A stretch of 34,906 nt of DNA. Source: an uncultured Oscillospiraceae bacterium (GTDB lineage Bacteria; Bacillota; Clostridia; Oscillospirales; Oscillospiraceae). This document shows positions 5,443-7,092 of this stretch, one piece after another. Within the stretch, counting starts at the first letter, position 1, and every line of letters starts with the position of its first letter. The notes beneath the pieces were generated by a model. The model was given only the letters and a program-made list of their open reading frames with translations. It made no database searches and was not told the origin of the DNA. The stretch spans positions 1-34,906 of the forward strand of contig CANQSD010000006.1 in assembly GCA_947626385.1 (NCBI GenBank), written 5' to 3'. The position numbers were made by a program, and so were the translations under genes.

Positions 5443-5446
5443 CATA

Positions 5447-5755
5447 GGGACACGGGGACGGTTCTTTTGGGAGAGACAAGGGGACGGTTCTTTTGTCCCA
5501 ACTTCGTCACAGCCTGACATAATATAATCCAACCCCCTGCGGGCGTGACAGAGGGACGGTTCTTTAGTCCCACCTCCGCCTTACGGCTACGGTGTGACGA
5601 AAAAACCGTCCCTCAGTCCCGCGGGAAGGTGCTTCCTTATCGATAGATTCTTTTTGCGTTTGTTCTACTGAGTAGGTGGGACAAAGGGGACGGCTTCTTT
5701 TGTAACACCAGTGCGCACACTGGTGGAACCAAAGAACCGTCCCCGTGTCACACCG
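5447..5755. repeat. Cluster of GGGACGGTTCTTTtGTCCC-type palindromic repeats
   Basis: At least six direct or inverted copies of the gggacggttcttt core. A long hairpin spans 5686-5744, with inner palindrome caccagtgcgcacactggtg at 5706-5725. Confidence 0.85.
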
Positions 5756-5790
5756 GCCCCCGTAGACGCTTTTTTTAGGAGGCCGCCCCC

Positions 5791-6126: not shown

Positions 6127-6198
6127 GAAGCCGCGATACAAAAAATTTTCAAAAAATCAAAAATTTCTCTTGACAAGCCGCGGGACATTTGGTATTCT
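6127..6198 (+). promoter_or_regulatory. Strong sigmaA promoter with A-tract UP-like element
   Basis: A/T tracts (aaaaaattttcaaaaaatcaaaaattt), then TTGACA (6170-6175)-N17-TATTCT (6193-6198). Confidence 0.85.
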
Positions 6199-6204
6199 AT
6201 CAAA

Positions 6205-6511
6205 GCGCCTGTGGGCGAGGTTTGCCCACGCGCGTACTGCGATGATCCGGGAGATTGCGCGAAAGCGGTAACTTCCGGGGAGTATGTCCGGTCGAAGCTG
6301 GAAACTTTTCCACCCGGCCGCGAGCCCAGTGAAACGGGTCGCGGACGGAAAGGAGGAGCGAAACCCGCGCCTGAGCCCGACCAACGGGAGGGCGAGGTAA
6401 AGCGGTTTCAGCGACGACGCAATCGGGCGGCTGAAAGATTTACTGTACTAGGGACGATAACAGCGTATATCGTCTGAGCAGAAGGTCAGCCGGATTCGTC
6501 CGGCGCTTTTT
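6205..6511 (+). ncRNA. Structured noncoding RNA or long attenuator-like leader upstream of rpsJ
   Basis: Strong promoter at 5' end, many internal stems (gtgggc/gcccac; ccgcgagccc/gggtcgcgg; gacgat/atcgtc; ttcagc/gctgaa), intrinsic terminator at 3' end. No convincing ORF. Confidence 0.7.
6489..6511 (+). terminator. Intrinsic terminator upstream of rpsJ
   Basis: GCCGGA-TTCG-TCCGGC-GC-TTTTT. Confidence 0.8.
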
Positions 6512-6593
6512 GTGGGCAGAAGTGATACGCACGGAACCGTGGACGGAAAATTTTTCACCGTACTATCAAATGTACGTTTTGGAGGAAACAATC

Positions 6594-6905
6594 ATGGCAG
6601 CAAAGAAATCCATCCGCATCAGACTCAAGGCTTACGACCACCAGCTCATCGACCAGGCCGCCGAGCGGATCGTGGAGACGGCGAAGAGGACCGAGGCCAA
6701 GGTCTCCGGCCCCATCCCCCTGCCCACGAAGAAGGAGGTCGTCACCATCCTGCGCTCTCCCCACGTCAACAAGGACTCCCGCGAGCAGTTCGAGCGCCGC
6801 ACCCACAAGCGCCTCATCGACATCGTCTCCCCCACCCAGAAGACCGTGGAGGCGCTGATGAGCCTGGAGCTCCCCGCCGGCGTGGAAATCGAGATCAAGC
6901 TTTAA
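6594..6905 (+). CDS. rpsJ: 30S ribosomal protein S10
   Basis: [46 protein letters not shown]. Confidence 0.98.
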
Positions 6906-6914
6906 GGAGGGCCC

Positions 6915-6962
6915 CTTCAGTCACGGCTGACGCCGTGCCAGCTCCCCCAGAGGGGGCGCCAA
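6915..6962. repeat. Interspersed repeat CCYTCAGTCACGG..CCGTGCCAGCTCCCCC..GGGGG
   Basis: ccttcagtcacggctgacgccgtgccagctcccccagagggggcgcc; same family as 13420-13516 and 24907-24962. Confidence 0.8.
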
Positions 6963-7092
6963 AAAACCTCAGTTTACACCCATTGGCCGCGACTTGCGTT
7001 AAGCGGCCAGGGTCATGTCGGCGGAAGGGCCTACGGTTGCTGAAAGCCCAGGCCGTCGACCAATAACCTTATAAAGGAAGGATAGATCAAGA

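Follow-up and report, generated by a model that had tools for sequence, protein, structure and literature searches.

A dispersed structured repeat in the third hairpin of a putative S10-Clostridia-type ribosomal protein leader from an uncultured Oscillospiraceae bacterium

The first gene of the S10 operon in an uncultured Oscillospiraceae bacterium is preceded, in the 34,906-nucleotide stretch of DNA analysed here (hereafter the window), by what is very probably an S10-Clostridia-type ribosomal protein leader acting by conditional termination, whose third-hairpin loop holds a tolerated dispersed repeat, as do the P12 loop of RNase P RNA and the region directly before tmRNA. The leader type is already known; what is new is the uncatalogued folded repeat that enlarges the tip of the third hairpin. 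The features of the region, with the evidence for each, are as follows.

6139..6198, + strand: A/T-rich tracts and a sigma-70-type promoter, TTGACA-N17-TATTCT, with extended -10 TG (sequence scan).
6205..6233, + strand: 5' hairpin of the transcript, GCGCC-GTGGGC..GCCCAC-GCGC (predicted fold; present in relatives with altered sequence).
6239..6291, + strand: S10-Clostridia core, comprising GCGATGA, the hairpin CCGGGAGATTGC..GGTAACTTCCGG and then GAGTATGTCCGG, the 5' arm of the third hairpin (RF03136, covariation, order-wide recurrence).
6292..6419, + strand: copy of the dispersed structured element, occupying the apical loop of the third hairpin (R1 model, DNA identity, covariation).
6314..6348, + strand: element hairpin 1, CCG-GC-CGCGAGCCC..GGGTCGCG-GA-CGG (compensatory pairs GC/CG, GC/AU and CG/UA between species).
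6352..6418, + strand: element domain 2, helix G-GA-G-GA-GC / GC-GA-C-GA-C with G-A mismatch steps (fold and covariation).
6423..6428, + strand: 3' arm of the third leader hairpin, TCGGGC, pairing with GTCCGG at 6286-6291 (insert-free in other genera).
6453..6474, + strand: hairpin GACGAT..ATCGTC with the nearly invariant loop GCGTAT at 6463-6468 (leader alignment).
6489..6511, + strand: intrinsic terminator (attenuator), GCCGGA-TTCG-TCCGGC-GCTTTTT (scan, recurrence, covariation of the arms).
6525..6530, + strand: ATACGC, predicted to pair with the loop GCGTAT at 6463-6468 across the terminator (alignment).
6559..6576, + strand: small hairpin CGTAC..GTACG immediately before the ribosome-binding site GGAGG at 6581-6585 (alignment, covariation).
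6594..6905, + strand: rpsJ (S10), first gene of the S10 operon (Pfam PF00338 Ribosomal_S10, E 4e-40).

Since rpsJ is followed by rplC and rplD, the leader constitutes the 5' UTR of the S10 operon. In the promoter scan, TTGACA-N17-TATTCT at 6170-6198 fits the consensus at 10 of 12 positions, and the -35/-10 pair is kept in the leaders of relatives; the 1.8 kb scanned contain this one promoter-like site against 0.5 expected, and no other before rpsJ. Transcription is inferred to start near 6204. The resulting 308-nt RNA has a predicted folding energy of -138.6 kcal/mol, compared with -117.0 kcal/mol in shuffles, and is more stable than all 100 of them (z = -3.8). An earlier, sequence-only reading had described A/T tracts before this promoter and a stem-rich RNA of about 307 nt with no convincing ORF, all of which agrees with these results. 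A GTG frame of 88 codons is present at 6211-6477; it matched no family in a Pfam search and its sequence is not kept among the relatives, and it was therefore rejected as a real gene.

The identity of the leader was examined against Rfam, as the sequence-only reading had proposed. No match was obtained in the window at the gathering threshold. The best permissive match in 6150-6600 is the S10-Clostridia ribosomal protein leader (RF03136), which spans 6234-6323 with 31.0 bits (E 1.4e-4), below the gathering score of 35.1 for this family; at E <= 10 the region gave this match, two others at chance level and nothing more. The raiA motif, RNase P, tmRNA, SRP and 6S RNA had no match in the stretch even at E <= 10; the last four had already seemed dissimilar from the sequence, while the raiA motif, then considered possible, was rejected along with other known RNA classes. 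Among 20 rpsJ loci of the genus and family, 15 match RF03136, 12 of them above gathering, with a top score of 46 bits. The insert was considered as the cause of the low score and this explanation was dropped: some filled leaders (L049, L053 and L058) pass the gathering threshold, while the empty leader of the sister species G021 (L041) is absent from the RF03136 matches at E <= 0.01, so that the insert alone fails to explain the sub-gathering score. In numerous further families of the order, rpsJ is preceded by the core GCGATGA..GGAGATTGC..GGAGTATGTCCG, and almost every one of 50 leaders from across the order has this core, a terminator and a post-terminator box ahead of rpsJ. Many clostridial examples of the Firmicutes S10 r-leader have been described, and conditional terminators are among the mechanisms known for r-leaders (PMC7247131). 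Taken together, the RF03136 match, the relatives, the order-wide core, the terminator and the mechanism known from the literature identify the region, by sequence comparison, as an attenuation leader, a member-like case of a known r-leader and not a free ncRNA.

The sequence-only reading had left two alternatives, an attenuation leader controlling the ribosomal cluster or an abundant stand-alone ncRNA, and it is the former that is supported. A stand-alone RNA merely preceding rpsJ would account for the region having its own promoter, its own terminator and a stable fold. However, the RNA is invariably placed before rpsJ, its core, terminator and post-terminator box are co-conserved up to the start codon, it matches an r-leader family (RF03136), and the scanned stretch offers no second promoter-like site from which rpsJ could be served. 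The stand-alone interpretation is thus very improbable and was rejected on context and conservation.

Terminator-like sites in the scan are by themselves no commoner than in shuffles (3 against 2.6); what argues for this terminator is that one is found at the equivalent position in leader after leader. It lies between the core and the start codon in 29/29 leaders of the genus and in 48/50 overall, the figure outside the genus being approximate because the detector was a simple one. In the window its U tract ends 83 nt before the rpsJ start at 6594, which confirms the clean terminator previously placed about 80 nt before rpsJ. An alignment of 14 leaders, with the insert removed, supports the core helix, the terminator arms and the pre-RBS hairpin, answering the call for a covariation analysis of homologues; in G004 the pre-RBS hairpin reads CGAACG..CGTTTG instead. 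The same alignment backs the GCGTAT/ATACGC pairing more weakly: 94% of cells are paired, with one compensatory species (G027, GTGTAT/ATACAC) and three mismatching species. The sequence is suggestive of a pairing that would form only after read-through.

Within this conserved framework, about 130 nt (6292-6420) are an inserted dispersed repeat, which the view of a single RNA of some 307 nt had missed. The covariance model of the repeat, R1, matches 6335-6419 of the window with 84.3 bits (E 3.4e-13). A DNA search of the source genome found the leader once and gave 44 partial matches elsewhere to window 6347-6419; the 73-nt core of the insert is up to 89% identical to dispersed copies in the source genome and 93% in relatives, with E down to 8.9e-25. 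The relatives' named contigs are from uncultured Oscillospiraceae, chiefly rabbit-gut metagenome assemblies, and some of their leaders align with a gap at the position of the insert. In other genera the third hairpin reads GTCCGA-CAA-TCGGGC or GTCCG-ATTTTAAAC-CGGGC without any insert. Its loop is 3-24 nt in most leaders, compared with about 128 nt here, and is 129-149 nt in 14 leaders and 38-104 nt in shortened ones; R1 matches 14 filled leaders at E < 1e-4. Two species of the crown clade have a cleanly empty leader, with a loop of about 20-25 nt like that of the basal members, namely G021, the sister of the window's species, and G022; five carry a shortened insert (G019, G024, G001, G027 and G030). 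With gain and loss placed on a tree of rpsJ-rplC DNA, the best reading of these sequences is that the insert was gained once at the base of the crown clade and later lost, partly or wholly, several times. The natural variability of the hairpin tip, 8-32 nt in basal members of the genus, might suggest instead that the hairpin grew in place, through duplication or extension of a palindrome, and owes nothing to the dispersed repeat. This is refuted by the DNA identity of the 73-nt core to dispersed copies, unless the leader was the source of all of them, and the R1 match also stands against it; we regard local growth as almost certainly wrong.

The element is about 100-130 nt long and its fold was defined from 12 dispersed copies. 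It comprises a hairpin CCCC..GGGG, followed by the helix with G-A mismatch steps described above, then a stem that varies between copies and an inner arm that has GA steps of its own. In the leader of the window, the domain 2 stem pairs GAAACC at 6360-6365 with GGTTTC at 6404-6409 and the inner arm is CCTGAGCCCGACC-AAC-GGGAGGGCGAGG. Pairs of this stem are swapped between copies (GAAACC/GGTTTC, GATGCC/GGCATC and GAACAC/GTGTTC). In the 12 defining copies, 93% of cells pair, 15 pairs are changed on both sides and none of 500 shuffles reaches the score, a result which is partly by construction because the structure was drawn on these copies; slid controls drop to about 34-41%. Thirteen leader copies from 13 species, not used to draw the fold, have 98.4% of cells paired with 40 compensatory cells when placed on it, the leader-specific first hairpin being drawn by eye. 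Likewise, 18 matches from viral contigs are 92.9% paired with 77 compensatory cells, and 0/500 shuffles reach their score; this figure leans towards the model because the alignment was fitted to it.

The source genome carries 54 R1 copies. R1 matches were found in 27 of the 34 genomes of the genus, with a maximum of 76 copies per genome among the other crown members, and are rare elsewhere in the order (9/199 genomes, three of these from the genus). The conserved ends of the element occur in 26 viral contigs, and its relatives occupy intergenic positions in phage or prophage contigs (L344-L369), several of them sharing a site while their stems have diverged; a blastn search against plasmids and phages gave no match. 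Rfam searches of the copy-bearing loci found no family at gathering besides adjacent RNA genes, and the element is an uncatalogued dispersed structured repeat, absent from Rfam 15. Other repeats were observed alongside it. At L126-L133 (e.g. C94:6702-6802 of the source genome), the element sits in the loop of another dispersed palindromic repeat, CTACGCCCGCAGGCGTGTTTCGGAGGCCAACCGC..GCGGCTCTTAGGCCGGAGATG; at L122 the nesting is reversed, with the palindromic repeat inside the element. In the window, the rpsJ-rplC spacer (6906-7092) carries a further dispersed repeat of 58 nt that shares 83% identity with part of L142, and palindromic repeats of the GGGACGGTTCTTTTGTCCC type are clustered at 5443-5760, upstream of a DUF5658 gene.

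The element is also present in or beside other structured RNAs. In the RNase P RNA gene of the source genome (L175/L213, C183:43-477, minus strand), it lies within the P12 loop; the full length of RF00010 aligns to this RNA (222.8 bits, E 9.1e-72), and the element stands out as a single insertion in P12. In the genus, the RNase P stretch ACAGAAA..GGTAAGAGC measures 52-72 nt when empty, 103 nt in G033 and 160-182 nt when filled. R1 matches P12 in seven genomes, several of them on long contigs, and misbinning of the small contig C183 would therefore leave the P12 finding intact. Insertion into a hairpin loop of a structured RNA, with the loop empty in relatives, was thus found for both the S10 leader and RNase P P12. 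In 14 of 24 genomes a copy of the element stops 1-4 nt short of the tmRNA 5' end; in the source genome (L395, C1:35423-35885, minus strand) the copy ends 1 nt before the mature 5' end, and 13 other genomes of the genus are arranged likewise. A weak tmRNA-like match in L084 (E 2.2e-6, below gathering) was judged spurious because ARAGORN found nothing there. An R1 search of the two full-length 23S genes of the source genome gave no match.

Y1 transposase (PF01797) and reverse transcriptase (PF00078), the two mobilising enzymes searched for, had no match in the source genome, which is 92% complete; with neither enzyme found there, classification as a REP/RAYT or group II intron-derived element lacks support. 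The ends of the element, GGGGTCCCC and GCGACGACG, are not inverted repeats, and target duplications, checked by eye at the copies, were not consistent. At L188 (C5:20395-20694 of the source genome), a tRNA 3'-part without a complete tRNA adjoins a copy and is possibly an integration remnant. At least eight distinct copies clearly host a further copy of the element in their inner loop, some of which may be unit amplifications. The flanks of dispersed copies are more complementary than shuffled flank pairs (p 0.005) and barely more so than random genome positions (17/43 against 26%, one-sided p 0.04; rank tests not significant). A general preference of the copies for hairpin loops is just suggestive, because the excess over random positions is slight in a palindrome-rich genome. 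The element is presumably mobile. A wider proposal, which we consider rather unlikely, is that it represents an uncatalogued mobile RNA-folding family of Oscillospiraceae and gut viral contigs which enters the hairpin loops or edges of structured RNAs (its own loop, the S10 leader, P12, pre-tmRNA) without Y1 or reverse transcriptase, some copies now serving as processing or protein-binding modules shared by ribosomal, RNase P and tmRNA loci.

The filled leader would work as follows. The promoter would initiate a leader of about 390 nt upstream of rpsJ, in which the core at 6239-6291 together with 6423-6428 would fold into a protein-recognition domain. With its cognate r-protein in excess, the terminator at 6489-6511 would form and switch the operon off; otherwise, polymerase would continue through the terminator into rpsJ. 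The predicted fold places the element in a closed arm of the leader, at a naturally variable tip, and the repeat would form a self-contained helical arm directed away from the core, so that the leader should still fold and function; this would explain why the repeat is tolerated and retained. The same reason may apply to the repeat in the P12 loop and directly before tmRNA. The element is most likely a selfish palindromic repeat tolerated where it merely lengthens a hairpin, much as 23S intervening sequences are.

Counting against a mere passenger, compensatory changes have preserved the insert helices across 13 species, an upkeep that could reflect an acquired use. The element might in that case have been domesticated and now contribute to the working of the leader, of RNase P RNA and of pre-tmRNA alike, perhaps by giving all three a site where a protein binds or RNase III cuts. 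G-A mismatch steps, which the element has, are characteristic of RNA motifs bound by proteins; compensatory changes maintain its helices, and the same element type is found throughout the crown clade at three loci for stable or regulatory RNAs. On the other hand, the leaders of G021 and G022 are cleanly empty, five crown species have shortened inserts, and P12 is empty in the RNase P of G015, a close relative, which together indicate that the element is dispensable at each site. We therefore consider domestication rather unlikely and retain the tolerated repeat as the preferred reading.

An r-protein control leader and the RNase P ribozyme can thus take up one and the same dispersed folded element at the tips of hairpins, and the natural pairs of empty and filled forms are material for probing the modularity of both RNAs. 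The element is a strongly covarying structure outside Rfam 15, in up to 76 copies per genome. Annotation pipelines are liable to take such copies for new ncRNAs, as nearly happened here. Among known systems, the P12 of cyanobacterial RNase P RNA carries repetitive DNA in the form of tandem heptamers; repetitive DNA is tolerated in the P12 loop in both cases, whereas here it is a single folded dispersed element. With the S10-Clostridia leader (RF03136, PMC7247131) the present one shares the site before rpsJ, the core sequence, the helices, the downstream terminator and the cis-regulatory layout, but its third hairpin is enlarged by a mobile-like element of about 128 nt, and it runs beyond the 81-position RF03136 model, with the terminator, the GCGTAT/ATACGC pairing and the pre-RBS hairpin. 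In the intervening sequences of bacterial 23S rRNA, extended stem-loops have replaced small tetraloops (PMC4990558); there too a folded element replaces a small hairpin loop without destroying the host RNA, whereas here an mRNA leader and the RNA of RNase P serve as hosts, the copies number dozens and the element carries no ORF in the leader. Rickettsia palindromic elements (RPE), ERIC, BOX and MITE-like repeats (PMC10969869) are similarly about 100-150 bp, non-coding, dispersed, folded, multi-copy and sometimes intragenic; compared with these, the present element shows no clear terminal inverted repeats or target duplications and is distinguished by its G-A-rich two-domain fold, its placement in functional RNA loops and its self-nesting.
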